Shown here piece after piece: positions 6,938 to 49,940 of a stretch of 52,408 nucleotides of DNA; within the stretch, counting starts at the first letter, position 1, and every line of letters starts with the position of its first letter. The stretch is from a virus. Under the pieces are notes generated by a model. It ran no database searches. It had not been told where the DNA came from and worked only from the letters and a program-made list of their open reading frames with translations. Where the stretch lies: IMG/VR virus record IMGVR_UViG_3300024259_001058, positions 1-52,408 of that record, one strand, 5' to 3'. A program made the position numbers and the translations under genes.

Positions 6938-7576
6938 CTGTTCCGCCACCCGGCGGTATTCCTTCTGCAATTCCTGCCGCGCGCGGAATAGGTATACCTT
7001 TGCGGTGTTGTGGGGCATCCCCGTGCGCTTGGAGGTTTCGCTTGGGCCTTCCCCTCGGTCGAAGCGTGCGGAGAATGCTTCCCGATGCTTGGGGCGCATC
7101 CGTGCGGCGGCGGCCTGCATGATCTCTTCGTGGTCCTCGGCGATCAGCGCATCGAGAACGGTGTGGCTGTCGTATATGCCCCCGGCCATGTGGTTGTAGT
7201 CGGCCCGGTACTCTTCGGCGCGTAGCTCCTCGGCGCTTCCTCTGCCGTGTGCTTGTCGCCATCGGTATCGGTCGATGATGCAGTTGGTCACGATGCGCCC
7301 CGTCCACCCCAGGTACGACCCTTTGCAGGGGTCCCAGAGGTGCCGCTTGCACCATATCTTCATGTACACGTCGTTCACAGCTTCCTGGGCGTCTTGGTAG
7401 TGGCCGAGCTTCTTCATGCAGTGGCCCAGCGTGTACGGTCCTTGCCAGGCGTAGAACTCATCGAAGGCGTCCTCGTCACCGCTCTTTATACGGCGTCCAA
7501 GGCTATCCGCTCGTTCGCCTGGTTCCACATCTCGATAGCTGTCGCTCGGTCGTTGCCCTTCAGCACTTCGTCCCAT
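6929..7576 (-). CDS. ECF-type RNA polymerase sigma factor
   Basis: About 215 residues. A sigma region 2 begins around SGDEDAFDEFY and runs through GHYQDAQEAVNDVYMKIW and GRIVTNCIIDRYRWR, which recognises the -10 element. An insert of ~50 residues follows. Region 4 is a helix-turn-helix (RPKHREAFSARFDRG, then PSETSKRTGMPHNTAKVYLFRARQEL), which reads the -35. Regions 1 and 3 are absent, which defines the ECF group. The start is uncertain: ATG 7576, ATG 7597 or a GTG further in. All of these overlap the sulfotransferase gene. It would redirect host RNA polymerase to phage promoters. I see no anti-sigma factor next to it. Confidence 0.88.
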   Translation of the reverse strand: MGRSAEGQRPSDSYRDVEPGERADSLGRRIKSGDEDAFDEFYAWQGPYTLGHCMKKLGHYQDAQEAVNDVYMKIWCKRHLWDPCKGSYLGWTGRIVTNCIIDRYRWRQAHGRGSAEELRAEEYRADYNHMAGGIYDSHTVLDALIAEDHEEIMQAAAARMRPKHREAFSARFDRGEGPSETSKRTGMPHNTAKVYLFRARQELQKEYRRVAEQLA

Positions 7577-8226
7577 ATCCCCACGCGTCCTTTCCATTCG
7601 GAGATGTGATTCCCGTAGTAGTGCGTCTCGTGGTCGAAGCTGTTGTGGCTGTTGTCGACAGTGCGGCCACGCATCACCACCTGCTCTATGTCCGTGGCTG
7701 CCAACAGCCGTACCTCTCTCTCTGCCGAGAGCGGGGACACCTTCGGCATGTAGGCCGGGACGAACCCTTGCAGGAACCCTGCCAGCCGGGAGAGTTCGTC
7801 GGCTGGGGATTCGATCATGTTGGCATAGAGTTGTTCGAGCATCTGGCAGTGGGGCGCGCCGTTGAACCAGTACATCATGCGGACGTGGTTATCGACCACC
7901 TCCTGCATGGACGTGCGCAGCGCAGCGCCTGTCGTCCCCGTGAAGGCTTTCCATGAGGCGGCCACGTCACGTATGTCACGGTGGATGTACAGGAACGCGT
8001 CGTGTGGGTTCTCCACGAGTCTGCGTGAGATGTCGTGCGGGATGTTGTGAACCTTGACGAAGCGCACTGCGAACGCGCTGCGTCTGTCTTGCAGGTCTGC
8101 TTCCTCCACGGTTTCGGGTGGTTCGGGGCGTTTGGCTAGGTCGCTCAGTATGCGGCGTGCTGCGTTGTATTGCCAAGTCGACCCGGAGCGTTTCATCCCG
8201 AGGCACAGTACGTTGATGCCGTCCAT
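7486..8226 (-). CDS. Sulfotransferase (PAPS-dependent), complete copy
   Basis: 246 residues with the three landmarks of the sulfotransferase fold. A 5'-phosphosulfate loop near the N-terminus reads GMKRSGSTWQYN (residues ~10-21). A 3'-phosphate motif LYIHRDIRDVAASW lies at ~78-91. A late GNHISEWKGRVGIWDEV resembles the RKGxxGDWK adenine-side motif. Such enzymes move sulfate from PAPS to a hydroxyl or amine. The acceptor cannot be read from sequence; surface glycans or lipids are possible. It begins in a TAATG overlap and ends inside the sigma-factor gene. A second, related copy lies at the right edge of the window. Confidence 0.85.
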   Translation of the reverse strand: MDGINVLCLGMKRSGSTWQYNAARRILSDLAKRPEPPETVEEADLQDRRSAFAVRFVKVHNIPHDISRRLVENPHDAFLYIHRDIRDVAASWKAFTGTTGAALRTSMQEVVDNHVRMMYWFNGAPHCQMLEQLYANMIESPADELSRLAGFLQGFVPAYMPKVSPLSAEREVRLLAATDIEQVVMRGRTVDNSHNSFDHETHYYGNHISEWKGRVGIWDEVLKGNDRATAIEMWNQANERIALDAV

Positions 8227-12791: not shown

Positions 12792-13260
12792 CGCACACTC
12801 CCTTATACACAACCCGTTGCAGACCGCCAGAACCACGACCGGACGATACGACGACGACAAACACGACCCAAGAGACGCAGGAATGGTGCCAATCGCTTGA
12901 CATAACGCGACATTGGGCGCTTTTCTTCGATTATACCGTCATTGGTGGCACATTTCACCGTCATTGGTGGGGAACAGCGGAGAATCGTGGGGATTCGTTG
13001 CAGCGCCCGCGCGTAGGGGGGGGTTGGGGGACGAATCCGGGCTGCTACTGGGTCTGCGGGGCTGGTGTCCGGGGGGATGCGGGCCTAGTGTCGCATTATG
13101 CGCCGGTCGGGAGGGGGAGGAGAGCCCCCTATGGGGAAGATTTTCGATTTCCGTGTAGGAACTTATTTCCCTACGGGAGTTTCTCTCTTTTGTCTGCCGT
13201 CGGTAACCAGATATGCTACCCGTTTGGTTGCACGTCGTTGGTTACGGGGAGATAATGTGG
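12792..13260. other. Intergenic regulatory region between structural and leftward operons
   Basis: About 470 bases with no convincing gene on either strand. It holds the paired-repeat promoter at 12930-12970, a G-run cluster at 13016-13076, and an imperfect hairpin at about 13153-13178 (CCGTGTAGG pairing CCTACGG). That hairpin is followed by a T-rich stretch only on the plus strand. I do not see a clear minus-strand terminator for the structural operon that ends at 13261, so read-through into the leftward operon is possible. Confidence 0.6.
12930..12970 (-). promoter_or_regulatory. Leftward-operon promoter with two 14-bp direct repeats
   Basis: On the minus strand the 14-mer CCACCAATGACGGT occurs twice (12970-12957 and 12948-12935), spaced exactly 22 bases. 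The second copy runs straight into a perfect TATAAT (12935-12930). The -35 position holds only a weak GTGAAA, so activation by a protein bound at the repeats is likely. Transcription would start near 12923, ahead of the gene at 12791. Confidence 0.65.
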
Positions 13261-22015: not shown

Positions 22016-25000
22016 CTAACCCGGGATGAACGCACCGGCGACACTTGCCAGCGTGTTGCCCACCGCCAGGATGTTATCGAGTGTACTCGGCCCCGCCACC
22101 TGGGTATCTACCAGCTGCTGGTTCTGAATGGCGGACTGCACGCCCAGCTCGAAGTTACCTAGCGCCTGTATCGCGCCCTGCACCTGGCTACGCGCCTGCT
22201 GCGATAGACCCTCGCGCGTCGACGCCTGCTGGAACATGAACTGCATCGCGGACATCTGCTCGGAGAATCGTCCGCTGCGTACCTGCTCGGTGAAGGTGTC
22301 CGCCGTGATGTCCTGCCGCTGGAACTCGGACGAGAACTGAGCAATCTGATCGCGGGCGATGTTCGTCTGCTGCTGGTTCGCCTGCTCCACGAACTGCCTG
22401 CCCTGCTGAGCCAAGCTCGACATCTGCAAGCTCGCGTCGATGGCCTGCTGCTGCAAGTCCGCACGCCCCTGCAACCCAAACTGCCGTGCCTGCTCCTGCA
22501 ACTGCTGCGCCTGCAACTCGGACTGCTGAACCATGCCCTGCTGGAACTGCTGCGCCTGCTGACCAAGCTGAGTCCGCGCGGTCTGCAAGTCGCCCTGGGC
22601 AATCGCCCGCTGCGTGTTGAGAGACGCCTGCTGCGCCTGCTGACCAAGCAACGCCTGCTGAGACGAGAACCGTTCTTGGAAGCCCTGCTGCTCTCGCTGG
22701 AAGCCTGCGGCGTCGCCAAGCTGCGCCGTCTGCAAGCCGCCCTGCAACGCACCCTGCGTGCCCTGGAACTGCTGGCCGAACTGCTGCGCCTGCTGCTGCA
22801 ACCCAAGCTGCGCGTTCGCCTGCTGGCGCTGGAAGTCCTGCGCCGCAGCGCCCCCTTGGGCCTGTGCTTCAAGCGCGCGGTTTTGCTGCTGCGCTCCTTG
22901 CTGAGCGCCGAACAACGTATTGAACAGGTCTTGCTGCGAGGATAGTTGCTGCCCTTGCTGCTGCTGGCCTAGCTGTGCTTCGAGGTTCGCTGCGCTCTGC
23001 CCGAACCCCGCTTCCTGGCCCGCTGCCCCAAGCACCTCTCCGAACAGGTTCTGCCTTCCCTGCGACTGGGCCTGCGCACGCCCTAGCCCCAGGTTCCCCT
23101 GCGCTATCTGCGCCTGCAAGTCACGCTCTGCCTCGCCTGTTACCAAGCCGCCTACCTGACCAAACAGGTTCTGCTGCGCGTCGATGCCTGCGATCTGTCC
23201 TTGCTGGCCCAACTGTCCACGGGCGATGTCCGCCTGCAACTGCTGCGCAGACTGGTTCTGAGCCGCCCCTGTGAGAGCGCCGAACGCGCCTTGCTGGGCC
23301 TGCGCCTGCCCGATCTGTCCCTGCAACCCTAGCTGCTGAGTCGCCTGGCTAGCGCCTAACTGCCTCTGCAAGTCCTCCGACTGGAAGCCGCCCAGCTGCC
23401 CCAGCAGGCCCTGCAAAGCCGCCGCCTGGCCCTGCTGTGCCTGCAATCCTAGCTGTGCTTCTAGGCCGCCCGCTGTCGCCTGCCTCTGAGCCTGAGCGTC
23501 CGCCGACCCCGCAAGCTGACCAAACAGCCCGGCCGCCCCCGCCGCCTGCGCCTGCTGGGCCTGCTGCTGGAGCGCCTGCTGCTGGCCCTGCTGCTGTGAG
23601 AACTGCGCGCTCATCTGAGGAATCTGCTGGAGCGCCTGCTGCTGTGCAGCGAACCTCTGCTGTGCTACCTGATTCCCTACGCCCTGCAAGAGGCCGCCTG
23701 CCTGCTCGCCAAGAAGCCCGGCAGCAACGCCCGACCCCGAGATTCCACGATCACCTGCTTGGAACGGGTCGGCGCTGTTGATGCGCTGAATCTGACTCTC
23801 AACGTCTTGGAACAGCGCGTTCTCCGCACGCTCGCCAGCCTGCGTCTGCTGCCCCAACGCCTGCGCAATAAGCTCCTGCTGAACCTGCGTGATGCCCGTC
23901 TGCGACAGGTTGCGGAAGAAGTTGGAGTTCTGGGTGTTGAAGTTGCCCTGCGCTGCATTAGCGTCAGCGGCTGCCTGTGCTGCGGACCCGATGTCTTGCC
24001 CAAACGCCTCAGTAGGGGCCTGCCCGACACCGGCCGAAACGCCGGTGATGCCCCGTGCCGCAGACTGTGCCTGCTGGGCTAGACCTGTCCCCAACTCCGT
24101 CGGGCCGAGGCTAACACCAAACTGGGTGCCGCCACGCTGACCCGCCCCCACGGAGCCACCTGCGATGTTACCGGCGCTTGCGGCAAGGTCCCCCGCCAGC
24201 CCTGGCTGACCCGTTTGGTGCCCCAACTGCGCACCCAGGAAGCTGTTCCCGAGCGTGTTGGCTTGGATAGTGGGGGCTCGGGTACCGCCCGCTAACTGCC
24301 GGATGTTTCCGCTGAGTTCCTGTCCGAGGCCCTGCTGACCTTCCCGACTGCCAAGCAGAACGCCGAATCGGCTGTTGTCGAGCGCACCGGCGTTGATAGA
24401 TGTGTCAAGGTTCTGCTGGTTGAACACGTTCTGCGCACCACCAAGCAGGTCCTGCAACGTGCTGCCACCGAACTGCTGGCTAAGCAAGTCCGTTCCGCCC
24501 AACGTCTGACCGTCGACCGAAGGGGCGCTACCCTCTGCACCTAACGCTTCTATCTGCGTTCCCAGCGTATCACGTGCCTTGTCCACCGCCGCCCCGGGCA
24601 ACCCCGCCCCAAGGTTCTGCAAGAACGGCGTCACTGCCTGAGCGGGGGTCTGCCCACGCCGATCTGCGGTGCCTACCAACGAGACAAGCTGATTCATCTC
24701 CTGCTGATTCAGGCTTCGCCCGAGGTCCCGCTCTGCGGCGATCACTGCGCCACTTACATTAACATTGCTGAGCGCCGGAAGACCCGCCTCCTCCAACGCG
24801 GTGTTAACCTGCTGGACGGTGGTATCCGCCTGCGTCTGCTCATCTATAGTGACATCAACAGCGGCAGTGCCTGCGGCCCCCGCCTGCCCAATGTTCCTCA
24901 GATTCTGTGTGTCTAGGGTGGCACCGCTACGCGTTGCGAAGAACTCTGCAAGGCGCTGCGCGCCCCCTGGGTCACCACTCTCGATGAGGTCCAGAACCGC

Positions 25001-27763
25001 CTGCCGTTCTATCTCCGTAACCGGCTCCGTCCTCTCGCCTGCGCCAGTCAGCTGCTGGAACTGGGTGCTAGGCGCACCGCCCGTGGCGGTAGCGCCACGC
25101 TGCAACGCTTGCTGCAATCCTGTTGCCGCCTGCGAGCTATCGCCCGTGGCGAAAGTCGAGCCGAACAGGTCGTCGCTGCTTACCGGGGTATCTAAAGGAG
25201 TCCCGGTCAGGCTCTCAAGCGCCCGCTGCACAGCCGCGTTCTGTTGCGTAGCATCCGGCTGGCTACGTGCAAGCTGGACTACCGAGTTCAACTCCTGCTG
25301 CGACAGTTGCCTGCCCAACTGGTTCTCGGCGCTCTGGATGGCCAACGTGGAGGTGGCAGGCAACCCACGCGTACCTAACAACTCTGGCGGCGCAGGGGGT
25401 GGCTCACCTGCGGCTTCCGCAGCCGCGACCGCTGCTTCGTGAGCAGCTGTTGCTTGCTCGTCCTGCCGTCCTCGGAAGGCAGCTACCCGTTCGTTTATGT
25501 CGGCTATGCTTGTGGACTGGTTACCACCCGCCGCCGCAACGGGGCCTAACCCACCCGTGAGTGTGGGGTCTACGGAAAACGCCTGAGATAAGGTCCCCTG
25601 CCCACGGTCGAATATGGACTGGCCACGCACCTGACTTAGCTGCGCCTCTAAGGCCAGGGCCGCCACCTCGCCTTGTTCAGCGAACACATCCGCCACACGT
25701 CCCGCCTCTTCGAGAGTCAACTCGCGGGTGCCACCGGGCGCTCCCGTAAGGAAGTCCAGCGCCGACGAACCCAGCCCCGCCGCCCCAAGGTCCTGCCCTA
25801 GCTGCCCGCTCTGGTTCGCAGACCCGAAGAACTGCTGGAACAGCTGTTCTAGCTGGCCGGGGACTACCTCGTTCGTCGCTGGGTCTAGCTGCTGCCCCTG
25901 CGTAAGCTGACTGAAAGCCCCCGGGGTGGTGGGGGTCGTCAGGTTCTGCATGTTGGCCAGCGAGCCTTGCTGCGTGATGTCGCCACGCAGATTCCCAAGC
26001 GATTCATCGAACAAGGCCGTATCCCGGGGAGTCCCAAACTGCTGCAAGTCTAGGTTCTGGATGTTCTGGCCGAGAATGCCCCGGATAGACGCACGCCGCG
26101 CCGCGTCGGTTGTGTCATTCCCGACTAACGCCCCTGGGTCGGTTCCTCCACCCCCGATGAGTCCCCCGGTATTGGGGCCGAAGATGTTATCTCCCCCCGT
26201 GGCCCCAGCACCGGCAGTTGGGTTCGCGTTCCTCATGCTCTGGACTGCACGCCGGGCCGCGTCAAACCCCCGGTCAGCAAACACCGCACGCCAGGTACGA
26301 AGTTCCTCATCGGAAATGTCGGGGTATACCGTTCGCGCCTCATCGTCCATCACGCTCGGGTTAACGGGGAGAGGACCGTTCGTACCCGGTGTATCCAAAA
26401 GATTAAGGACATTGAACGCACCTGCCCCACCCCCCTGCGGCTGCTCAAACACCAACATGAACTGGCCGTCGTTTAGCCTGGCGATAGTACTCTGTGCATG
26501 ATTTGCTATGGCCCTAACCACGTCTCCTGTCGTCTGGGCAGTACTCCCGTCCGGCAAAACCCCCCCGTTCCCACTGAGAGCGGGGAACAGGACATCGGCC
26601 ACAAAGCCATTCATTTCGGTTTCGATGGCCAGTCGGTCGGTGTCATCAAACATGCGTTCGCTAGCAAAGAACACCTGGCGCACGAAGTCCGCGACTGGGG
26701 CGGCAATCGGGCGAATGTCAATGCCCTCAACGCCATTTGCATCCACGTATGTAGTTAGCGGCGCGTCCTCAAATCCGAAGTCGCGCTGCGTGTCGAAGTT
26801 AAGCTGAGTACCAGGCTGCACCGAGGCTGTGAGAGACTGCCCCCCGAAGCTCTGCGCAGCACCACCCCCAGCCGCCCGCTCCTGCTGGCCAAGCGCCGCT
26901 ATCTGCCCGCCGAACTGCTCCAACGTGCCGCCCTGGTCCGCGAAGGGGTTGGCCTGTGCTTCGGGCTGGCTCTGCTGCTGCTGCCCGAACTGCTGCGCGA
27001 ACGCGTTGGAGTCGAAGCCTGGTGCGCCCGCTACGGACGTGCCGATGTTCTGCTGCGCGGGGGCAGGAGGAAGCGTCTGCTGCGGAGCTTGCTGTTGAGC
27101 TAGGAACTGCTGGAACTGCTGGAACATCTCCTGCTGCGGGTCAGCCTGCTGGGCCTGCTGAGGCTCAAAGAACTGCCCGGACTGTCCGAAGCCGCCCGCG
27201 CGCGAGGGGGCCGGGGCTTGCTGCTGCTGCCCAAACTGAGGCACCTGCTGCGGCTGGAACGCGAACTGTCCCTGCTGTTGCTGCTGCTGAGCCTGCTGCT
27301 GGAAGGGGTTCGCCTGTTGCTGCTGTTGCTGCTGCCCTTGCTGCTGCTGCGGATTCTGAATTAGGTTGCGGAACAGGTCGATGATCTGGTTCGGCTGGCC
27401 ACCTATGCGGACGTTGTTGCCGAAGCCACCGAAACCACCGCCCTGCTGGCCGAAGCCCCCCTGGAACCTGGCCTGACGCGCACCGCCGACGCCCTGCTGC
27501 TGCCTCTGCGACGGCTGGCCCTGGAACTGCTGGAAGCCCTGCTGTTGCCCAAACTGCTGCTGGAACTGCTGCGGCCCCTGCCGTCCTTGCTGTGGCTGGA
27601 AGGGCTGGATTTGGAACGGACTCGTCCCTTGCCCCCCTTGGATACCGGGCTGCGTTGCCATCTGGCCGAGCGGACTACGGGTAGGGTTGATGGGCGACTG
27701 AACCTGCCCCTGGCTCTGGCTGGCGTTCTGTCGCGGCTGGTTCCCAGTGCTGAACGTGGGCAT
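22016..27763 (-). CDS. Giant glutamine-rich repeat protein, 1915 aa
   Basis: Starts at ATG 27763 with GGAGG upstream. The first ~350 residues are dominated by Gln, Gly, Phe and Pro, with up to seven Gln in a row, like prion-type low-complexity domains. The middle (~370-1100) is more complex and holds two copies of a short helical unit (NQLGRQLSQQELNSVVQLA near 808 and DLGRSLNQQEMNQLVSLVG near 1006). Residues 1412-1611 are five tandem repeats of exactly 40 residues, each opening with LFG or a variant. A long Gln-rich coiled coil follows. The last ~15 residues are hydrophobic (TLASVAGAFIPG). It lies among virion genes; an internal or ejection role is inferred. Confidence 0.75.
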   Translation of the reverse strand: MPTFSTGNQPRQNASQSQGQVQSPINPTRSPLGQMATQPGIQGGQGTSPFQIQPFQPQQGRQGPQQFQQQFGQQQGFQQFQGQPSQRQQQGVGGARQARFQGGFGQQGGGFGGFGNNVRIGGQPNQIIDLFRNLIQNPQQQQGQQQQQQQANPFQQQAQQQQQQGQFAFQPQQVPQFGQQQQAPAPSRAGGFGQSGQFFEPQQAQQADPQQEMFQQFQQFLAQQQAPQQTLPPAPAQQNIGTSVAGAPGFDSNAFAQQFGQQQQSQPEAQANPFADQGGTLEQFGGQIAALGQQERAAGGGAAQSFGGQSLTASVQPGTQLNFDTQRDFGFEDAPLTTYVDANGVEGIDIRPIAAPVADFVRQVFFASERMFDDTDRLAIETEMNGFVADVLFPALSGNGGVLPDGSTAQTTGDVVRAIANHAQSTIARLNDGQFMLVFEQPQGGGAGAFNVLNLLDTPGTNGPLPVNPSVMDDEARTVYPDISDEELRTWRAVFADRGFDAARRAVQSMRNANPTAGAGATGGDNIFGPNTGGLIGGGGTDPGALVGNDTTDAARRASIRGILGQNIQNLDLQQFGTPRDTALFDESLGNLRGDITQQGSLANMQNLTTPTTPGAFSQLTQGQQLDPATNEVVPGQLEQLFQQFFGSANQSGQLGQDLGAAGLGSSALDFLTGAPGGTRELTLEEAGRVADVFAEQGEVAALALEAQLSQVRGQSIFDRGQGTLSQAFSVDPTLTGGLGPVAAAGGNQSTSIADINERVAAFRGRQDEQATAAHEAAVAAAEAAGEPPPAPPELLGTRGLPATSTLAIQSAENQLGRQLSQQELNSVVQLARSQPDATQQNAAVQRALESLTGTPLDTPVSSDDLFGSTFATGDSSQAATGLQQALQRGATATGGAPSTQFQQLTGAGERTEPVTEIERQAVLDLIESGDPGGAQRLAEFFATRSGATLDTQNLRNIGQAGAAGTAAVDVTIDEQTQADTTVQQVNTALEEAGLPALSNVNVSGAVIAAERDLGRSLNQQEMNQLVSLVGTADRRGQTPAQAVTPFLQNLGAGLPGAAVDKARDTLGTQIEALGAEGSAPSVDGQTLGGTDLLSQQFGGSTLQDLLGGAQNVFNQQNLDTSINAGALDNSRFGVLLGSREGQQGLGQELSGNIRQLAGGTRAPTIQANTLGNSFLGAQLGHQTGQPGLAGDLAASAGNIAGGSVGAGQRGGTQFGVSLGPTELGTGLAQQAQSAARGITGVSAGVGQAPTEAFGQDIGSAAQAAADANAAQGNFNTQNSNFFRNLSQTGITQVQQELIAQALGQQTQAGERAENALFQDVESQIQRINSADPFQAGDRGISGSGVAAGLLGEQAGGLLQGVGNQVAQQRFAAQQQALQQIPQMSAQFSQQQGQQQALQQQAQQAQAAGAAGLFGQLAGSADAQAQRQATAGGLEAQLGLQAQQGQAAALQGLLGQLGGFQSEDLQRQLGASQATQQLGLQGQIGQAQAQQGAFGALTGAAQNQSAQQLQADIARGQLGQQGQIAGIDAQQNLFGQVGGLVTGEAERDLQAQIAQGNLGLGRAQAQSQGRQNLFGEVLGAAGQEAGFGQSAANLEAQLGQQQQGQQLSSQQDLFNTLFGAQQGAQQQNRALEAQAQGGAAAQDFQRQQANAQLGLQQQAQQFGQQFQGTQGALQGGLQTAQLGDAAGFQREQQGFQERFSSQQALLGQQAQQASLNTQRAIAQGDLQTARTQLGQQAQQFQQGMVQQSELQAQQLQEQARQFGLQGRADLQQQAIDASLQMSSLAQQGRQFVEQANQQQTNIARDQIAQFSSEFQRQDITADTFTEQVRSGRFSEQMSAMQFMFQQASTREGLSQQARSQVQGAIQALGNFELGVQSAIQNQQLVDTQVAGPSTLDNILAVGNTLASVAGAFIPG
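22931..23530 (-). repeat. Five 120-bp (40-residue) tandem repeats in the Gln-rich protein
   Basis: Reading the minus strand, units start at 23530, 23410, 23290, 23170 and 23050. Each is exactly 120 bp with no insertion or deletion. Units begin GLFGQLAG, GLLGQLGG, GAFGALTG, NLFGQVGG and NLFGEVLG, and most carry a Leu-Gly pair near residues 27-28. A degenerate sixth start (DLFNTLFG) follows. DNA identity is low, so selection holds the length and protein pattern rather than recent duplication. Confidence 0.8.
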
Positions 27764-36037: not shown

Positions 36038-37648
36038 CTACTCCCAGCTGTTGCTGTCTTCAAAGTACAGCCGAGGGTTGCCCGGCCCCCACGTCCTATT
36101 GATTCTGATGTCTGAGGGCCACGGTGTCAAGTCTCCTATGCTACCGTAGCCGTCTTTCTGTCTCTGACGTAGCATGTCCATCACGCGGTTCACCTGAACC
36201 TGATACCGAGCCTCATACTGAGCCGCATCGTCCAACGAGTTCTGGCGCTTACCGAGGCATATTGCTACCGTCTTGAACCGAATCGCCGAGATGGCCGCCG
36301 TCGGGAACGGGACCACGTTGGAGTCGTCCACAAACGCGGGTATCGTTACCGCAGCACGCACCCGGAACGCCTCGGTGCGGTTATACGCATGGACCTTGAA
36401 CAGCATGTCGTTCGTGCCTGCTGTCCACGACGAGCCGTTGTGCGTGGCGTCGTTGCCGTTGTCATAGCCACCGTCGTCGTCATACTGCCACGTGTAGTGG
36501 TTGTCGATGTCGTCGGTTGCGCCGTAGTAGGCGCTCTGCGTCGGTATCTCGGCAGTTAGCCAATAGGCCGTGTTCGCCGCCAGCATGAACGGCTCTTCAA
36601 AATAGAACTCAGCCCACCCGTTCTCACCCGGCGTAGCGTTGGCTGCCTTCGCCCGGAACGACGCCAGCGTGCCAGACGGGACGGAAGCGGAGTCCGTCTC
36701 AATCCGAACCACCATCGCACCGATTGGCCCGTCCGTAGGCGCGTCCGTTATCGTCTTCGTAGACGCCCCCAGCCTGATAGACACGCCCGAAATAACCGTA
36801 TCGCGCCGAAGCAGGAACTTCTGCCCGGCCTTCTGGTTCGTGTCTGAGACGTTCCCGATTCCGTGGGTTCCGTCCGACGCGGACGTATGCTCGATAACAG
36901 CCGTCTGATCGGTCGAAGATGGCGCGTTGCGTAGAACCACATCTTTACGTGTGTACTCCCTCGCGCGTATCTCGTACACATCGCCAAGCTCGAAGTTGTT
37001 ACGCCCGCCGCCCTGCAACCCCGCACCGGCCGTCTGCGCCGGGAACGTCAAAGTCGTGGCGGCTATCCCGCTGGCGTCGATGGTCGCTTCGCCGTTGTCG
37101 GTCACGTTCAGGACTGCATCGCTGTTCCCGTCCGTCGTCAGGTCCCGCAACGCGGCACCCTTCTCGTTCACGACGTTCGTGCCGTCCACGAAGGACTCTT
37201 CGGTAGCGAAGGGACTACCACGGTCTGCATCTACCACCGTCGTAGCGGACCCGCTGGTGACAATGCCCCGAGTCATCAGCTTCCGTGCGTCGCGCACGGC
37301 AAAGGTGCCGGGGTTGTCGCTCGTGTTGTCCGTGTCCCGATACGCCTCTACCGAGTCCTGCGTAATCTGGTCTAGCGGCGTGTACTGGCCCGCGTCAAGC
37401 CAGTCGACCGCTAGCACCTCGATCACTTCCTTCGGCATCTGATACCGGCGCTTACCCGCCACCGGATGGAAGACGAAGTAGTTCTCAAGGAGCGCGAAGG
37501 CGTCGTGAGAGACGCAATCCTCGCACGTCTCATCCACCGCCTGCTGAAGGGCGGCGTTGATCTCGGCGTCCGTGTGCTGCCCGGCGGTAAGCTCTCCGAG
37601 TAAGCGCCGGACCTCTGTGAGCATTTCGCTGCGTATTAGCGTCGGCAT
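36038..37648 (-). CDS. Head-tail adaptor with inserted beta-sandwich domain, 536 aa
   Basis: The N-terminal ~95 residues (LIRSEMLTEVRRLLGELTAG, then QQAVDETCEDC) and the C-terminal ~80 (AICLGKRQNSLDDAAQYEAR, then DMLRQRQKDGYG) match the helical adaptor that fits between portal and tail in short-tailed phages. Between them, residues ~100-440 are beta-rich. Part of this, around AGQKFLLRRDTVISGVSIRLG, resembles the choice-of-anchor type adhesive sandwich. Such an insertion would project from the neck. ATG 37648 has GGAG upstream, and a strong UUCG-loop hairpin lies before it. Confidence 0.65.
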   Translation of the reverse strand: MPTLIRSEMLTEVRRLLGELTAGQHTDAEINAALQQAVDETCEDCVSHDAFALLENYFVFHPVAGKRRYQMPKEVIEVLAVDWLDAGQYTPLDQITQDSVEAYRDTDNTSDNPGTFAVRDARKLMTRGIVTSGSATTVVDADRGSPFATEESFVDGTNVVNEKGAALRDLTTDGNSDAVLNVTDNGEATIDASGIAATTLTFPAQTAGAGLQGGGRNNFELGDVYEIRAREYTRKDVVLRNAPSSTDQTAVIEHTSASDGTHGIGNVSDTNQKAGQKFLLRRDTVISGVSIRLGASTKTITDAPTDGPIGAMVVRIETDSASVPSGTLASFRAKAANATPGENGWAEFYFEEPFMLAANTAYWLTAEIPTQSAYYGATDDIDNHYTWQYDDDGGYDNGNDATHNGSSWTAGTNDMLFKVHAYNRTEAFRVRAAVTIPAFVDDSNVVPFPTAAISAIRFKTVAICLGKRQNSLDDAAQYEARYQVQVNRVMDMLRQRQKDGYGSIGDLTPWPSDIRINRTWGPGNPRLYFEDSNSWE

Positions 37649-40281: not shown

Positions 40282-41301
40282 TTATATGGTGGAGATGTCT
40301 TCGATACGCCCCTGCCGGTGCCGGTCGGAGCATATCAAGGCGAGGTCGGAAATCACGTGACCGACCACGGAGTCGTCTTCCTGCTGGAACCCGAGGAAGT
40401 CGAAGTCCGCAGAGTTGCGGATTCCCAGCCAGAAGGAGTTGTGGTTGATGAAGACCATCTGGTTCGCCGGGGCCATCTCGTCACGGACGAATGTGGCGAA
40501 GTCGTATTCCACATTCTTGAAGCCCAGCTTCGCCAGATTCTCGTTGGTCTGCGGGTGCTGACCTTCGAGCAGGAGGTTGAAGGTGTTGAACACCTTGTTG
40601 TTCATGTAGACCATGATGTCTTCGGGGTCGTCCTCGCCGGTCCCTCGTCGGAGGTTGGCGAGCATGGCCGAGACATCTTCGAGGCCGATGCTGCGGTTCG
40701 TGCCGCTGTTCGTGTCGACGTGACCCGACCAGCGATTCAGACCGTCCACATCGTCCGTGCCGACATCGCCCACCGCGAGGCCCGCGTAGGACGCCGTGGT
40801 GTCGATGATGGTCTTCTGGCCTTGGAGCGTTTCGCCGTCAGCGCCATCGCCTGTGCCGTAGATGTCCGTGCCGATCTCGAAGACCAGCGACGAAATCGCC
40901 TCTTCCATCTGCTCGTCAATGAAGGAGAACAGGGTGTTCGCCTTGTTGCGGCCGAGCGATTTCAGAGAGTCCTGGCGCAGGAGTGCGCCGATGCCCACGT
41001 CGATGTTCCCACGGAGAGTGGGACCGTCGATCTGGACGGCGCTCGCGTAGTGCTTCCAGCCGATGGAGCCGCGCTTGACGGCCTTGCGACGGACACGCGG
41101 GAGCCGACCGTAGGACGAGTAAGTCCCGGCGGGCTGGCGTTCCGTCCAGATGCCGAACTTGACCACATCGCCTTCCCCGTAGTGGACGGCTTTGCGAATC
41201 AGGTTCGCAGCAAAGACATGCGACCTCTTGATGACCTGCTTATCGAGGCCACCCCAGGTGTAGCGTACACCCAGTTCCAGTTCCGTAAGAATCGCGGACA
41301 T
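40282..41301 (-). CDS. Major capsid protein
   Basis: 339 residues from ATG 41301, with GAGGGAAA upstream; the frame starts earlier without a ribosome site. Features fit an HK97-fold capsid. An N-terminal arm is followed by a basic loop (YGRLPRVRRKAVKRGSIGW), a long spine-like helix (NKANTLFSFIDEQMEEAISS), and a late domain with DIMVYMNNKVFNTFNLLL and MVFINHNSFWLGIRN. It follows the scaffold gene, the standard order. A 108-base gap upstream with small hairpins may tune its expression. Confidence 0.8.
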   Translation of the reverse strand: MSAILTELELGVRYTWGGLDKQVIKRSHVFAANLIRKAVHYGEGDVVKFGIWTERQPAGTYSSYGRLPRVRRKAVKRGSIGWKHYASAVQIDGPTLRGNIDVGIGALLRQDSLKSLGRNKANTLFSFIDEQMEEAISSLVFEIGTDIYGTGDGADGETLQGQKTIIDTTASYAGLAVGDVGTDDVDGLNRWSGHVDTNSGTNRSIGLEDVSAMLANLRRGTGEDDPEDIMVYMNNKVFNTFNLLLEGQHPQTNENLAKLGFKNVEYDFATFVRDEMAPANQMVFINHNSFWLGIRNSADFDFLGFQQEDDSVVGHVISDLALICSDRHRQGRIEDISTI

Positions 41302-41408
41302 TGGTTTCCCTCTCGGGTGAGCCAACTCCGCTACAGGATAACACCCCCACTATGGGGATGCGGGGCGCGTGGCCTATCCTGCTACCGCGCGCCCTAGCAT
41401 CGTCGTCG

Positions 41409-42458
41409 TTAGTCGCTGAATCCCGTCACTTCCGCCCATTTCGCCTGTCGCAACGAATCCTGCTGTGGCTTGCTCAGCCCAGCGAAGTCTTCCTCGCCCA
41501 GAGGAGCTACGTTGTCCAAGGTATCGGACACAGTGCGCGTCCGCCCGGTGCTTCGGCTGCCGGAGGAGACTGCCTCTTCCGCCTGCTGAGCATCCTGCCT
41601 TGTGGCTATACGAGAGCGTACTCTCCGCGAACGAGCCGTGGAGAGCATGTCTGCGTAAGCGTCCACATTGCCCTGATGCCGCAAGACTACGGCCGTCTCG
41701 GCCTCCTGCGTGGTCATGTGCTCCTGGGTGACAAGTTGGTCCCTAAGAGCAAATGCCGCCTGCCGCACCGCAGCGTTCTGCTGCGCTTGCGTGTCCTGTT
41801 GCTTGGCTACCTCCTGGGCAGCGACCCGTTCTCGAAGGACTTTCAACTCAGCGGCGATGGCCGGGTCACTGTGCGGTTGTACCGTTGGGGACGCGGTTGG
41901 GGTAGCTTGCGCATTGTCATACAGATCATCGTCGTAGTACCCCGAGCCGTTGTTGGCAGCGGGCTGTTGGGCCTGCGCCTGCGGCTGAGGGTTAGAGACG
42001 GTGTGCTGTAACGCAGCTACCTGCGTCCTCAATGACTCGATCTCCTGCCGGTCATGAGCGGCTCTCCGGTCTGCAAAGGACTGGAGTTCCGAATAGTCCG
42101 TGGTCGCTTGGGCAGTCTCTTGCTGTGACTGCTCGACTTGTGCGTTGCTGTCGGCTAACGCCGAGACGTAGGAGGCCATCCGATCTTCGGCGGCCTTCTG
42201 CTCCTCGGACGTGTAGGCGTTTGCAGGTTCATGGTCGACGTTGGCGGTATCCGCCGTTTCGACTGTACCTTCCGACTCTCCCGCGTCCGTGCTTTCTTCG
42301 GCTTCCGTAGGCGCTGCCTCGTCAACAACCTCCGAGAGGGGTAGATCGTTGTCGAAGTCGGACCCTACGGCGGCCTCCAGCCGGTCGGCGGGCTCCGAGC
42401 CCTGGGGCTCGGGGGAGTCAGGTTGGCCCTGGTCGTCCAGGCGCTTACTCTCCCTCAT
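41409..42458 (-). CDS. Scaffolding protein
   Basis: 349 residues, very acidic in the first ~110 and coiled coil from ~110 to ~270 (SALADSNAQVEQSQQETAQA, then LKVLRERVAAQEVAKQQDTQ). The C-terminus is basic and helical and could touch the capsid. Order portal-scaffold-capsid is the classical arrangement. A small CCCGTG hairpin (42469-42484) lies just upstream of its ribosome site. Confidence 0.75.
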   Translation of the reverse strand: MRESKRLDDQGQPDSPEPQGSEPADRLEAAVGSDFDNDLPLSEVVDEAAPTEAEESTDAGESEGTVETADTANVDHEPANAYTSEEQKAAEDRMASYVSALADSNAQVEQSQQETAQATTDYSELQSFADRRAAHDRQEIESLRTQVAALQHTVSNPQPQAQAQQPAANNGSGYYDDDLYDNAQATPTASPTVQPHSDPAIAAELKVLRERVAAQEVAKQQDTQAQQNAAVRQAAFALRDQLVTQEHMTTQEAETAVVLRHQGNVDAYADMLSTARSRRVRSRIATRQDAQQAEEAVSSGSRSTGRTRTVSDTLDNVAPLGEEDFAGLSKPQQDSLRQAKWAEVTGFSD

Positions 42459-42506: not shown

Positions 42507-44570
42507 CTACGCGAATTGAGGCTGCCCCTGGGGTCCTCCCGGGGGCGGTGCCTGCACTGGTGGTATACCAGCACTTTCTGGGGGAAGCAAGCCCGACTGT
42601 TCCTGACCCGGCGGTAACGCCGGTTGCTCGCCACCCGGTAACTGTTGCTGAGGCGCGGGCTGCGGCTGCTCCAACTGCGCAATCGCTTGGTCCAGCTGCA
42701 ACTCTTGGAAGCGGTTGTTCTTGATCTCCAACCGCCGCCGCATCTCCAACGCCTCTCGGAACTCTTCCTCGATCTCAAGGTCAGCCGTATTCACAAAGCC
42801 CAAAGCATCCACCGCACCGACGTTCATCAACTCGATAGCCCGCTGGAACTTCTCGTCAGGCGTCGTAGCTTCGTCCGCACGGGAGCGAATACGCGCGTCG
42901 CCTTTGAGCCGACGGATACGCTCATCGAACTGCAACCACTCTCCGTCGGCCATGTGGTCCAAGAACTCTTCCAGCGTGTGGAACTGCTGGACGTTCCCGA
43001 CTTCCTGCTTGAAGCGCGAGTGCAGGCCCTGGTCGGAGTTGCGGAGCTTCTGCCGCATACGCTTGAACGCCGCGTCCTGCAACTGCTGGATGTGCCTGCC
43101 GGAAGCGTGCGAGCCGGGGGACTCGCCTTCTAGCGCGGGGTTGATGTTCGTCTGCTGCTCTACGTTGTCTTCGAGCATCCCGATCAGGTTGTAGAAGTCC
43201 TGCGATACACGCATCGGCTCAAGCCGCTGGATGCGGTCTATCATCCCACGCGGCACCTCGATAGCCAACCCCGGCTTGTTGGTCAGCCACTCGGTCTTCA
43301 ACGCGCCCTCTTCGTAGAGCCACTGCGGGTTCCCGGTGAGCGCCGCGCCCTGCATCAGGAACGACCACAGCACGTTGATGGCCTGCTGATTCCCCTTCAT
43401 CGGGGTGATGTCGCCGAATCCATAAGGGTCGCGCGGGTTGCCGTAATTCCGATACAACGCGAACGGAATCATCCCGTGGCCGCCTACCTCATCGCCCTCC
43501 TCGGACTTCCGAGCGTAGGGGTTGGCAACGTCGTGGAGGACATCCTCACCTGCGAACGTGATGACACGGCCGTCGGGATATTTCCGGGTAGCCACGTCAC
43601 CGTGCTCGTGGCCGAAGATCGTCTCCTCGTGGAACCACAAGTGGTACACGTCGACCATAATGCGTTTCAGGTCGGACGATTCTAGGTCCGTGTCTCGGAA
43701 GATTTCACCGTAGTTGACCCGCCGGAACAAGCCGCCCTTGTCGTGCAGCTTCATTTCCTCATGGCGGCCGCCCTTCTCGACAATCTTGGCTACCTGCTGC
43801 GCCGACAGACCGTAGCGCCAGCGCATGTCGTCCGCGTCCATCCGCGTGCGGAAGACTACGTACTTCGCTGTCTCCAGCCTGCGGTCGGAGCACTTCGGGT
43901 CGATAAGGAAGTCGCGTGGGTCCACCTGCGTAACGCCGGGGCGGTTGCGCTTACGGTCCCAGAACGTCTTCTCGACACCGAGGCCACCCACGGTCATGTC
44001 CGTGTAGATGCCCTCCATGCGGGTATGCTCACTGCGGCGCTCATACTCGGCATGAATCATGTTGGTGAGGTCGGTCGCCAGATCGTTGTCGGTCTTCTGC
44101 CCTGGGGAGGTGGGCATCGGCGGAAGGCCGTGCTTCGCCAGGAACTTGTTGGCCTCGTCCCCACCGTCGGGGTTATCGGCTGCCCAGTACGGCGTCGAGC
44201 GCATGTCCATCATCAGCGAGACGATGGCTTCGACCATGCCGAACGTGATGTTCCGGTTCATGCGGTAGCGCCACGATGGCGCTTCGCTCCGGGTGCCGTC
44301 CTCGTTAATCCACTGGTCGCCCTCGAAGAGTGAGTACGACTCATCGAACTGGCGAACGAACCGCTGCCGGTCCTCACCGTTGAGCGCCTGGTCGATGGCT
44401 GCACGGCCAACTCTCGATAGCCGCTTAGGCGACGTTATGCGCCCGAGGTTGCTAATGTCGTTTTCCAAGCTGAACTTGGACGACTTGACACTCGCAATCC
44501 GACGACCCGAGGAAGCATCCTTCCGGGCCTTCGGCTCTCGATTACTGACCGTGCGTGCCTGGTTAGCCAC
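42507..44570 (-). CDS. Portal protein
   Basis: 687 residues from a GTG start. The sequence VDPRDFLIDPKCSDRRLETA, the SYSLFEGDQWINEDG segment and the SWRYRMNRNITFGMVEAIV helix match portal proteins of P22-like short-tailed phages. The C-terminal ~100 residues are helix followed by a Gln/Pro-rich tail (QPAPQQQLPGG). It forms the twelve-fold ring through which DNA enters and leaves the capsid. It overlaps the upstream gene end. Confidence 0.8.
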   Translation of the reverse strand: MANQARTVSNREPKARKDASSGRRIASVKSSKFSLENDISNLGRITSPKRLSRVGRAAIDQALNGEDRQRFVRQFDESYSLFEGDQWINEDGTRSEAPSWRYRMNRNITFGMVEAIVSLMMDMRSTPYWAADNPDGGDEANKFLAKHGLPPMPTSPGQKTDNDLATDLTNMIHAEYERRSEHTRMEGIYTDMTVGGLGVEKTFWDRKRNRPGVTQVDPRDFLIDPKCSDRRLETAKYVVFRTRMDADDMRWRYGLSAQQVAKIVEKGGRHEEMKLHDKGGLFRRVNYGEIFRDTDLESSDLKRIMVDVYHLWFHEETIFGHEHGDVATRKYPDGRVITFAGEDVLHDVANPYARKSEEGDEVGGHGMIPFALYRNYGNPRDPYGFGDITPMKGNQQAINVLWSFLMQGAALTGNPQWLYEEGALKTEWLTNKPGLAIEVPRGMIDRIQRLEPMRVSQDFYNLIGMLEDNVEQQTNINPALEGESPGSHASGRHIQQLQDAAFKRMRQKLRNSDQGLHSRFKQEVGNVQQFHTLEEFLDHMADGEWLQFDERIRRLKGDARIRSRADEATTPDEKFQRAIELMNVGAVDALGFVNTADLEIEEEFREALEMRRRLEIKNNRFQELQLDQAIAQLEQPQPAPQQQLPGGEQPALPPGQEQSGLLPPESAGIPPVQAPPPGGPQGQPQFA

Positions 44571-45794: not shown

Positions 45795-47759
45795 TCAGAC
45801 TCCCAGGTCATCGTAATTCATACCACCGCCACCGCCAGAACGCAAGTGCGGCGGGATGACCTGCGAACTCACTCGCTTGCGCTCTCGGATGTCGTGCCGT
45901 CGACGGTTCTCTGCCTCGCTGCGAGGAACGCCGAGGACACGGTGCGCCCAGTATCCGATTGCCGCTGCCAACGCCAGATCGTCGTAGAAGCCCTGCTCCG
46001 GGTCGCCGTCGCCTCGGGGCTGACCCTTCTGCGGCGCTGCCACCTTCCCGTGCCGGTCGACCGTCTGCAACGCCTGGCACTCTCGCAGAAACGTCGAGTC
46101 CGGCAACTCCACCTCACCGCTTTCCACCACCTCGCGGAGATGGTCAATCATCACGCGGCGGATGTTCGCCGTGCTGTTCAGGCCGTACCGACCATCGCTA
46201 CGCCCGAGCATCGGGAACAGATCGGACTCCAACACCAGCCGAGGATACTGCGTGTAGAACCGATGCGGGCTTAGCAGGTCGTCAATCACGCGCTGTCCAA
46301 TGCCGTTCCGTTCCACGAGGATATGAGCATCGTTGTAGTAACGCCCAAGAGCATACAACTGGTCACAGAAATCGTCACTATCGGGCTTACGCCACGAGTC
46401 CCCACGGAGCCTAGCGACGTACTCCTCCGGCAGCCGCTGCCACACGACCGCAGCGCCGTAGTCCCCGGAGTTGGGCAGGTTGTGCGACGGGTCTACCCCG
46501 ATCACGTACTCCGTGTGCGGTCGCGGTGGAGCCCACACCTGCACGAAGCCGTCACCCGGCTTGTCGACAGCATCTTCCAGCCGCTGCATCCCAGCGCCGC
46601 GTTCTTCGAGATCGAAGTCGCCGATGATCGAGGGCGGCTCTGCTCGGTTCAGGTGGAAGATAACGCGAGCGGCGTTGATGTAGTTCCCGCCCGCTCCCTG
46701 GAACGCTTCCTCGGGATTCGACGGATACTCGCGCTTGAACCAAACCTTGTCGCCCCGAGCTTCCAGCAGCTTGAAGCGACGCCACAGCATCTGCTCGGCG
46801 GTGCAGCCGTATTGCTCGACCAGTTCCGCCTCAGCGCCGAACTCGTCCTGCTCCCCCTGATGCAGGTTGCGGATGAACTCGTCACGCTGGTCCGGGTCAT
46901 CGAAGCCCATGTTCGTCGCCATCGGAGAACCGAAGTCCAACTGGTATTTCGGCTCCTCCCACCACGCCACGAAGACCGCCTCGTAGCCGCCTTTCTGGTC
47001 CACGTAAGCCTGGTCCCAGTCCTTGTGGAACTCGTTCCCGTAAGGACCTGCGGACGATTCTTTGATGATCTTCGTGAAGACTTCGTTCGGGACACAAGGG
47101 CGTAGCGAGCGCATCATCCCGCCCGCGTTCGTCACGTGAGCGAACTCGGACAGATGCAGGTCGTGAATCGTCATCGACCGGCCCGACGCGCCCACTTGGT
47201 CGCCGCCCGATTCGTTGGGCAGCATTACCTCGATGGACGATTCGAGCGGGGCCGCGAACTTGATGCTCTGAGACTTCCGGTTACCGCTCCCGAGCTTCGG
47301 TTTGAACTCCTCCGGCAGGTAGCGATAGAACCGCTCGTACATCTCGAAAAGTCGTTTGAGCGAGTCGTCCTTGTGCGCTACGACACGGCAGTTCAGCCCG
47401 TGCGTGGTGAGCGCGTCGAATATGAAATCGGCGGCCGTTTTCGTTGAGCCGCCGAACTGTCGCGCTTTGAGCAAGATAAGCCGGATGGGCAAACCAGCCG
47501 CCGTCTGGCGGTCTGCTGCCGCTTGCATCTTGATTTGGCCGACGTTTGGCCGGTAGCGGCGAAGGTCGAGCCGGTCGTCCTGAATCCACAGGATGCTCGA
47601 CATGATGACTTGTCGATGCTGCCTTAACCACGCCTGGGCGGCGTTGGCGGCGTCCGAGCCACGTGTGCTGTCGTAAAGCTGGCGGAATTGCTCCCCGATG
47701 AGCGCAAGCATCTGCTCACTCGCGGGGTAGCGGAAAGGGTCGTGTTCCTGATCGAGCAT
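45795..47759 (-). CDS. terL: Terminase large subunit
   Basis: 654 residues. The ATPase half carries the terminase Walker A variant KARQFGGST (98-106) and the Walker B-like SMTIHDLHLSEFA with Glu205. The nuclease half has an RNase H-like triad: GVDPS (Asp423), HILVERNG (Glu483) and GFYDDLALA (Asp593/594). It cuts concatemeric DNA and pumps it through the portal ring. First gene of the structural operon, ~25 bases after a sigma-70-like promoter. Confidence 0.93.
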   Translation of the reverse strand: MLDQEHDPFRYPASEQMLALIGEQFRQLYDSTRGSDAANAAQAWLRQHRQVIMSSILWIQDDRLDLRRYRPNVGQIKMQAAADRQTAAGLPIRLILLKARQFGGSTKTAADFIFDALTTHGLNCRVVAHKDDSLKRLFEMYERFYRYLPEEFKPKLGSGNRKSQSIKFAAPLESSIEVMLPNESGGDQVGASGRSMTIHDLHLSEFAHVTNAGGMMRSLRPCVPNEVFTKIIKESSAGPYGNEFHKDWDQAYVDQKGGYEAVFVAWWEEPKYQLDFGSPMATNMGFDDPDQRDEFIRNLHQGEQDEFGAEAELVEQYGCTAEQMLWRRFKLLEARGDKVWFKREYPSNPEEAFQGAGGNYINAARVIFHLNRAEPPSIIGDFDLEERGAGMQRLEDAVDKPGDGFVQVWAPPRPHTEYVIGVDPSHNLPNSGDYGAAVVWQRLPEEYVARLRGDSWRKPDSDDFCDQLYALGRYYNDAHILVERNGIGQRVIDDLLSPHRFYTQYPRLVLESDLFPMLGRSDGRYGLNSTANIRRVMIDHLREVVESGEVELPDSTFLRECQALQTVDRHGKVAAPQKGQPRGDGDPEQGFYDDLALAAAIGYWAHRVLGVPRSEAENRRRHDIRERKRVSSQVIPPHLRSGGGGGMNYDDLGV

Positions 47760-48638: not shown

Positions 48639-49940
48639 CTAGTCCCACCTCATCACGTTGGGGCGGAAGGTCATCTCGACCGCGCCGACCTCGCCCTGCC
48701 TGTTCTTCCGCACGTGGACGGTCATGTCCCGTTCGCCGTAGCCGTCGTCATCGTCCAGGCTAGGCTTCTCAATCATCACCACCACGTCGGCGTCCTGCTC
48801 GATGCTACCAGAGTCCCGCAAGTGCGACAACTCCGGCTTTCCGCTGGCGCTCGCTTGCCGATTCAACTGCGACACGCCCATCACCGTGGTATGCAACAAG
48901 CCTGCCAATTGCTTCAACCTGACCGAGTATTTCGCCACCTCCTCGTTTCGGCTCTCGCTCGTGTCGGCGCGCATGTATTGCAGGTAGTCGAGCACCACCA
49001 CCCCGAGCTTCCCGTAGCGGTTGTGATAAAGCCGCGCCGTGTTCATCGCCTCGTCAATCGTCATCATCGGGGAGTGAATCACGTGGAACGGCTGTGCCTC
49101 AATCTCAGATGCCACGCCCGCGACGCCATCCCAGTGCGACTGAACCATCGTCTCGGGGTTCGTGATCTTGCTCAGCGACACGCCGGAGAGCATCGCCGTC
49201 ACACGCTGGGCGACCTGCTCCTCGGTCATCTCCAAGCTCAGGTACACCACCGGGAGCTTTTCCTCCCAGCACGACTTCCATGCCAGGTTCATCGCCAGCG
49301 CGGACTTCCCAACACTGGTTTCGCCCGCCACAACCACGAGGTCCCCCGGATGGAACGCCGGGACTTTCTTGGCCAACGACTCGGGCTTAACCGGGACCCG
49401 CTCGGATAGCTCCGGGTTCTGCATCCGCTCGTACATCGCGGAGTAGTGCGCTTCCAAGCGGCTGTCATGGCCACCGCCCGTCTCGGTCGCCTCAGCGATG
49501 CCGTCGTTGAGCAAACCCAGCAGGTAGTCCAACGGCCTGCCTGACCCTGCGTCAGCGGCGGCAGCTAAGCCAACCTGCTGGAGTCCCCGAACACGCGCGG
49601 CGTCCCGAACCACCTCTGCGTAATACTGCGCGTTCGCTGCGCTCGGGACACTCTCCCGAATTGAGAGCAGGTAGTCAGGCCCACCGACGCGGCCCAAGTC
49701 CCCCGCCGCCCGAAGCTCTGATGCGAGCGTGTAGACATCCACCGGCGTAGTCTTGTCCGAGAGCCGCAGGACTGCGCCGTAGATCAGCTGATTCGCCTGC
49801 GCGTGGAACGCCCCGACGCGCTCCCCCAACGTCAGGATTGTCTCGGGAATGCTGGTTTCCTTGTGCAGCATTGCGCCGAGGACATGCCGCTCCGCGTCGA
49901 TGTCGTACAGTTCCTTCGAGGTCCCCGCCTCAACCTGCAT
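48639..49940 (-). CDS. dnaB: Replicative DNA helicase, DnaB family
   Basis: 433 residues from ATG 49940, chosen because AGGAG lies seven bases before it; the frame opens at 49985. The N-terminal helical domain (DIDAERHVLGAML) is followed by the RecA-like motor: Walker A GETSVGKS (206-213), VYLSLEMT, Walker B VVVLDYLQ (314-321) and the DnaB signature LRDSGSIEQDAD (374-385). It unwinds the fork ahead of the polymerase. It overlaps the initiator gene by 11 bases, as in lambda O/P-like pairs, and is probably loaded by that initiator. Confidence 0.93.
   Translation of the reverse strand: MQVEAGTSKELYDIDAERHVLGAMLHKETSIPETILTLGERVGAFHAQANQLIYGAVLRLSDKTTPVDVYTLASELRAAGDLGRVGGPDYLLSIRESVPSAANAQYYAEVVRDAARVRGLQQVGLAAAADAGSGRPLDYLLGLLNDGIAEATETGGGHDSRLEAHYSAMYERMQNPELSERVPVKPESLAKKVPAFHPGDLVVVAGETSVGKSALAMNLAWKSCWEEKLPVVYLSLEMTEEQVAQRVTAMLSGVSLSKITNPETMVQSHWDGVAGVASEIEAQPFHVIHSPMMTIDEAMNTARLYHNRYGKLGVVVLDYLQYMRADTSESRNEEVAKYSVRLKQLAGLLHTTVMGVSQLNRQASASGKPELSHLRDSGSIEQDADVVVMIEKPSLDDDDGYGERDMTVHVRKNRQGEVGAVEMTFRPNVMRWD

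Follow-up and report, generated by a model that had tools for sequence, protein, structure and literature searches.

The window analysed here comprises a single virus record of 52,408 bases, to which all coordinates refer. On its minus strand, positions 22016 to 27763 form an uninterrupted open reading frame of 1915 codons, which begins with an ATG at 27763 and has a GGAGG-like site upstream; the extent given in the preliminary description was confirmed exactly. The encoded protein (P0001) consists of 19% Gln, 14% Ala and 14% Gly and contains one Lys, one Trp and no Cys. The genes on the minus strand follow the order helicase, terminase, portal, scaffold-like, head, smaller proteins, adaptor-like, nozzle-like and fibre-like, after which come the genes for proteins of 1915, 830 and 2084 aa (Table 1). 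The first two of these three are separated by 8 nt and the last two overlap by 1 nt, and an endolysin-like GH108 gene is located further along the strand, past the 2084-aa gene.

Table 1. Features of the P0001 gene and of the surrounding genome (residue numbers are those of P0001).
Feature	Position	Strand	Remark
DnaB-like helicase	48639-49985	-	
Terminase large subunit	45795..47759	-	phrog_2, E 2e-23
Portal, P22/SU10 type	42507..44570	-	PF16510, E 8e-25; PF23899, E 4e-21
Scaffold-like protein, 10.6% Gln	41409-42458	-	between portal and head protein genes
Major head protein	40282..41325	-	phrog_9953, E 1e-17
Adaptor-like protein	36038..37648	-	SU10_adaptor, E 1.8e-5, just below curated cut-off
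Nozzle/gp10-like protein (stabilisation-protein class), 721 aa	32882..35047	-	hhalign 96.7% against profile of relatives' proteins
Fibre/appendage-like protein, 1532 aa	28284..32882	-	composition nearest to SU10/P22 fibre and spike proteins; putative function
P0001, Gln/Ala/Gly-rich, 1915 aa	22016..27763	-	opens putative ejection cassette
Low-complexity Gln/Gly/Phe/Pro region, residues 1-300	26864..27763	-	33% Gln
Duplicated segment, first copy, residues 808-858	25190..25342	-	internal alignment
Duplicated segment, second copy, residues 1006-1061	24581..24748	-	internal alignment
Three looser [F/L]GxxxG-headed units, residues 1130-1250	24014..24376	-	motifs at 1133, 1176, 1215
RGISGSG, residues 1339-1345	23729..23749	-	break separating two predicted helices
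Five clear 40-residue units and a degenerate sixth, residues 1412-1651	22811..23530	-	lag-40 autocorrelation
Hydrophobic segment LDNILAVGNTLASVAGAFI, residues 1895-1915, C-terminus	22019..22081	-	sole hydrophobic segment
Second cassette gene, 830 aa	19515..22007	-	ejection-like composition (p = 7e-5)
Giant, last cassette gene, 2084 aa	13261..19515	-	C-terminal domain LTxFERKVxRRxxPFY common to other phage contigs

Because the portal matches the P22/SU10 type and the adaptor that of SU10, the virus is recognised as a short-tailed, P22/SU10-like phage. Its late operon has the layout of such a phage and ends in a putative ejection cassette, and the position of the P0001 gene agrees well with the earlier view that it belongs to a virion operon.

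Several other features were noted in the window. Palindromic poly-G and poly-C blocks at the start of the contig (18-76) are probably an assembly or sequencing artefact. Four 26-nt direct repeats of the TATGTGTCAGTTGTATCTGACTCATC type with spacings of 43, 32 and 33 (50486-50619) lie within the ORF 49930-50931, near the replication genes, and may be iteron- or operator-like. A sulfotransferase-like gene (Sulfotransfer_3, above the curated cut-off) was found at 7486-8226. Within the P0001 gene, a tRNA-Arg (CCG) was called antisense by ARAGORN at 25386-25455; the call received no confirmation from Rfam and is probably spurious.

The sequence collections contain one relative of P0001, the contig IMGVR_UViG_3300040985_001306, from which its conservation cannot be read because the DNA is 100% identical over the shared part. 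This contig stops at window position 13081 and extends about 6 kb beyond position 52408, so that the window is probably an incomplete genome. Scans with the portal, giant, nozzle-like and terminase sequences returned only the identical contig and one relative, 4.5 kb long and 71% identical in the portal, that stops short of the P0001 gene. No match to P0001 was found by tblastn, a negative result weakened by the low-complexity filter, and the protein has no Pfam or PHROG match and no relative in the PDB.

The first 300 residues form a long Q/N-rich low-complexity segment as in prion-like domain proteins. The comparison with prion domains made in the preliminary description holds as a statement on composition, but it is no special clue, since such domains have been reported to be widespread among podophage proteins, those for penetration and DNA injection among them (PMC5694896). 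At the other end of the protein lies its one weak hydrophobic segment, corresponding to a single 19-residue stretch above a KD value of 1.2.

A strong periodicity was detected in the C-terminal third. The BLOSUM62 autocorrelation of residues 1400-1620 has a peak at lag 40 with z = 11.1 (95% of shuffle maxima: 3.3) and harmonics at 80 and 120, and the identity at lag 40 is 36% vs 15 ± 3% at other lags. Elsewhere in P0001 no signal of this type was seen by autocorrelation, the best lag being near the shuffle limit. The units start at residues 1412, 1452, 1492, 1532 and 1572, and the degenerate sixth, at 1612, retains mainly an LF..xxxG head. Pairwise identities among the five clear units (1412-1611) amount to 12-21 of 40 residues (30-53%) at the protein level and 38-55% at the DNA level, different codons often encode identical residues, and no 120-bp array was reported in the repeat region by Tandem Repeats Finder. 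The LFG start given for them is recognisable, but the head motif is more exactly [L/A][F/L]GxxxG, in which G4 and G8 are invariant in units 1-5.

Furthermore, two internal similarities had been overlooked. The three looser units upstream are headed by motifs with spacings of 43 and 39, and a possible fourth motif follows 39 residues further on, at 1254; their pairwise z values are 7.3 (A-B), 4.0 (A-C) and 3.3 (B-C). Five repeats of exactly 40 residues are thus present at 1412-1611, but because of the upstream spacings the fixed length applies to the 1412-1651 set only. In total, 13 [FLY]GxxxG motifs occur in residues 1101-1660, compared with 2.1 expected. The second similarity is a duplicated segment of about 55 residues, which aligns with a score of 71 (shuffle maximum 46). 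Among the ejection-type proteins examined, the 40-residue repeat was seen in no other, and the sole other strong periodicity is an 8-residue Pro/Gly linker (L046).

Structure prediction over the repeats, which had been proposed with the preliminary description, yielded low-confidence helices and no periodic fold. In the AlphaFold2 single-sequence model, residues 1290-1915 are nearly all helical at low confidence (mean pLDDT 57), with a break at RGISGSG and otherwise irregular breaks; no regular 40-residue break pattern appeared in this region. An uninterrupted straight helix making 11 turns in 40 residues is not supported, since the spectrum has no power at a period of 3.64 and lines at 4.0 and 3.33. 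Likewise, the hydrophobicity spectrum of residues 1412-1651 shows no peak at 3.5-3.67 of the kind expected for a heptad or hendecad stripe (phiX174 H type), and a weak line at 3.7 is present only in residues 1612-1830. The structural constraint previously deduced from the fixed repeat length is plausible for the 1412-1651 set, which has kept its length free of indels despite sequence and codon drift; the upstream set, however, has indels, and neither a periodic fold nor a 40/11 helical stripe was predicted. Motifs similar to RGISGSG (RG[ML]xxSG) occur in the Gln-rich proteins of several of the relatives described below. A shared RG[MLI]xxSG hinge, though suggestive, was not retained: there are six matches vs 0.5 expected for a pattern that was picked post hoc, and one of the six falls inside a peptidoglycan-binding domain.

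The composition of P0001 was compared with those of 37 late genes of P22, SU10 and T7. The nearest eight of the 37 are all ejection proteins, namely SU10 gp22 and gp21, P22 gp20 and gp7, SU10 gp20 and gp23, P22 gp16 and T7 gp14. When each set was centred on its mean composition, only two of 16 window proteins were strongly ejection-like, P0001 (p = 3e-4) and the 830-aa protein, where the p-values assume independent reference genes and these are not quite independent. The scaffold-like protein (p = 0.009) and a 242-aa ORF (p = 0.02) followed at a distance, and the 2084-aa giant is not ejection-like by the same measure.

For the giant, relatives could be found via its C-terminal domain. A search with the degenerate pattern ERKVxRRxxPFY returned 12 viral contigs, including the identical one, and relatives of the domain comprise ten further viral contigs, Cellulosimicrobium phage DS1 and podovirus ctEqG8. 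The ORF layout was compared in 11 phages (G001, G002, G004, G005, G007-G010, DS1, ctEqG8 and podovirus ctuNt529, whose giant was assigned from position only); G006, which starts within the giant, and G011, in which the giant precedes the scaffold and head genes, were left out. All 11 carry an ORF with 7.3-12.7% Gln no more than two ORFs ahead of the giant; if the scaffold is set aside, it is usually the ORF richest in Gln. The encoded proteins are 195-560 aa long, except in G001 (locus L045), where proteins of 1207 and 1726 aa precede a 1999-aa giant. The layout of the cassette, if not its sequence, is common to these phages. The Gln-rich region of P0001 does not align with their Gln-rich proteins above shuffled controls, apart from one borderline exception (L042 13295, z 3.2).

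Further observations concern these relatives. The 1726-aa protein adjoining the giant of G001 has a metallo-endopeptidase domain (L045 8483-13663; phrog_7767, E 3e-13), which would fit a wall-degrading role of the cassette. Intein-like insertions were found right after PFY|C in the giant of G002 (L013 at ~1450; L013 and L038 belong to one record) and just ahead of T-AFERKV in a contig from a Paceibacterota bin (L052:3189-4448), the latter with a weak LAGLIDADG_3 match below the curated cut-off. Since the two insertion points differ and both fall at ERKVxRRxxPFY, this site of the giant ejection-like protein is suggested to be functionally important. A fold search with the C-terminal domain of the giant, based on a low-confidence model (pLDDT 52), returned no PDB match; the model has weak viral matches to giants termed 'large polyvalent protein', and those to N4-type virion RNA polymerases are below significance.

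Taken together, P0001 is best read as an enlarged DNA-ejection (pilot or internal virion) protein of a P22/SU10-type short-tailed phage, the first and gp7/gp14-like of three, with a probability of roughly 0.7; that it belongs to the ejection class as such is a somewhat safer statement. It has the position of this class, in the late operon of a short-tailed phage and adjoining a gp15-like and then a larger gp16-like gene. An order of the ejection genes with the largest last has been described (PMC8954989) and is likewise found in SU10 (gp20-24), P22 (7-20-16) and T7 (14-15-16). The protein also carries the composition of podophage ejection proteins, which is an empirical mark and not a formal definition. 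Against the ejection reading speak the length of the protein, its lack of matches to named ejection proteins, the absence of a periodic or confident predicted fold, and the giant, whose composition is not ejection-like and whose modelled domain matched no solved structure. Homology to P22 gp7/gp20, SU10 gp21/22/23 and T7 gp14 was not found (z ≤ 1.1 against locally shuffled controls), and P0001 does not match the P22 gp7/SU10 gp21-22 sequence family (z 0.5-1.0 against shuffled controls). Because local alignments do not exceed the controls, it is assigned to a functional class, from its position and composition, and not to a sequence family. It also differs from the T7 gp14-like family in size and in having one hydrophobic stretch instead of 2-5 membrane helices.

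That P0001 instead acts externally in the tail or in adsorption, as a fibre-associated, adhesin-like protein whose Gln/Gly-rich repeats form a flexible surface appendage, is unlikely. Among the large genes, that of P0001 comes directly after the fibre-like one, and prion-like Q/N-rich domains have been reported chiefly from tail and fibre proteins of phages (PMC5694896). However, the composition of P0001 is nearest to that of ejection proteins and remote from that of the fibre and spike proteins of P22, SU10 and T7, it is predicted to be helical with no beta structure, and its gene abuts those for the 830- and 2084-aa proteins and is about 520 nt away from the fibre-like gene. Quite unlikely, too, is a scaffold or core protein inside the head that organises DNA or internal proteins and does not enter the cell. 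Scaffolds can be Gln-rich and helical, as the scaffold-like protein of the window illustrates by its Gln content, but this separate gene already occupies the usual site, and composition and position of P0001 fit ejection genes better.

The size of P0001 could also reflect neutral low-complexity expansion of a small gp7/gp14-like ancestor by slippage and duplication, in which case the extra 1500 residues would have no selected function. Such an origin would account for the internal duplication, the poly-Q runs and the restriction of close relatives to one lineage. It is nevertheless very unlikely, as the 40-residue register of 1412-1651 has been kept free of indels in a far-drifted protein and DNA sequence, CAG and CAA codons are mixed in the poly-Q runs of residues 1-300, and the persistence of an unbroken 5.7-kb frame in a phage genome points to selection. 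A role as the tape-measure protein of a long-tailed phage, for which the great length, helicity and late-operon position might speak, is extremely improbable, since no tail-tube or baseplate genes were recognised in the window and its portal, adaptor and nozzle-like genes are of the short-tailed type.

As an enlarged ejection protein, P0001 would be packaged in the head and expelled via the portal together with the 830- and 2084-aa proteins. Its flexible, nearly uncharged Gln-rich N-terminus would thread through the tail, and the helical, Gln/Ala/Gly-rich C-terminal third could self-assemble in the envelope of the host, where the FGxxxG-headed units may provide regularly spaced close helix-helix contacts and the short hydrophobic C-terminus may serve as an anchor. 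The DNA would slide through a conduit lined by Gln amides, as it does in the tube formed by phiX174 H (PMC7354561). As a specific mechanism, this Gln-lined helical conduit remains doubtful. More speculative, and something of a long shot, is the idea that the [F/L]GxxxG motifs, recurring about every 40 residues over about 480 residues (1133-1614, interrupted midway), represent a new repeat module from which a long, modular DNA conduit across the envelope would be built. The number of units would set its reach, and the prion-like N-terminus of the protein would serve threading or condensation in the head.

Few virion proteins of phages are as poorly conserved and as poorly understood as the ejection proteins, which are often assigned from size and gene order. 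P0001 suggests that the first member of the cassette, normally about 200 aa long, can grow about tenfold, and its repeat system would be compatible with a DNA channel that is modular and lined by Gln. In addition, a Gln/Ala/Gly-rich, Lys-poor protein encoded directly before a giant late gene that carries FERKVxRRxxPFY may serve as a marker for ejection genes that have escaped annotation. The preliminary description knew of no characterised phage protein with this plan. This applies to the size and the 40-residue repeats, which are what is new and of interest in P0001, but not to the class, which is already known and ordinary: P22 gp7/gp20 and SU10 gp21/gp22 share its kind of gene position and its Gln/Ala/Gly-rich, Lys-poor composition.

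The closest counterparts in composition among the 37 reference proteins are gp21 and gp22 of SU10 (Kuravirus; r 0.84-0.88), with 14-15% Gln, 13% Ala, 14-15.5% Gly and 1.6-2.6% Lys. They precede larger ejection genes in a phage of the same portal/adaptor class, and SU10 gp20-24 are present in the virion and gone upon genome release (PMC9509320). Unlike P0001, they have 322-350 aa, no 40-residue repeats (best lag z 3.6) and no detectable homology to it. In P22, gp7, gp20 and gp16 are likewise encoded after the tail genes with the largest last, gp7 and gp20 are Gln/Ala/Gly-rich and the C-terminus of gp7 is Gly-rich and hydrophobic, whereas these proteins have 229-609 aa and neither a poly-Q N-terminus nor repeats, and no homology to P0001 was found. 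The cassette of T7 also consists of three adjacent genes after the nozzle gene, and its gp15 (747 aa) and gp16 (1318 aa) compare with the neighbours of 830 and 2084 aa found here. T7 gp14, however, has 196 aa and several predicted membrane helices, where P0001 has one weak hydrophobic segment; known gp14-like proteins comprise 181-240 aa (PMC8954989), so that P0001 is about 8-10 times longer. Finally, the DNA pilot protein H of phiX174 shares with P0001 a Gln-rich helical region and regular repeat lengths, in H hendecads and heptads (PMC7354561). It belongs to an unrelated ssDNA virus, is unrelated in sequence and is built from 11- and 7-residue instead of 40-residue units. Its conduit is lined mainly by Gln, Asn and Arg, and alteration of the lining Gln residues affects genome delivery (PMC7354561); as a Gln-lined DNA conduit, H would resemble P0001 by an unproven analogy of working only.
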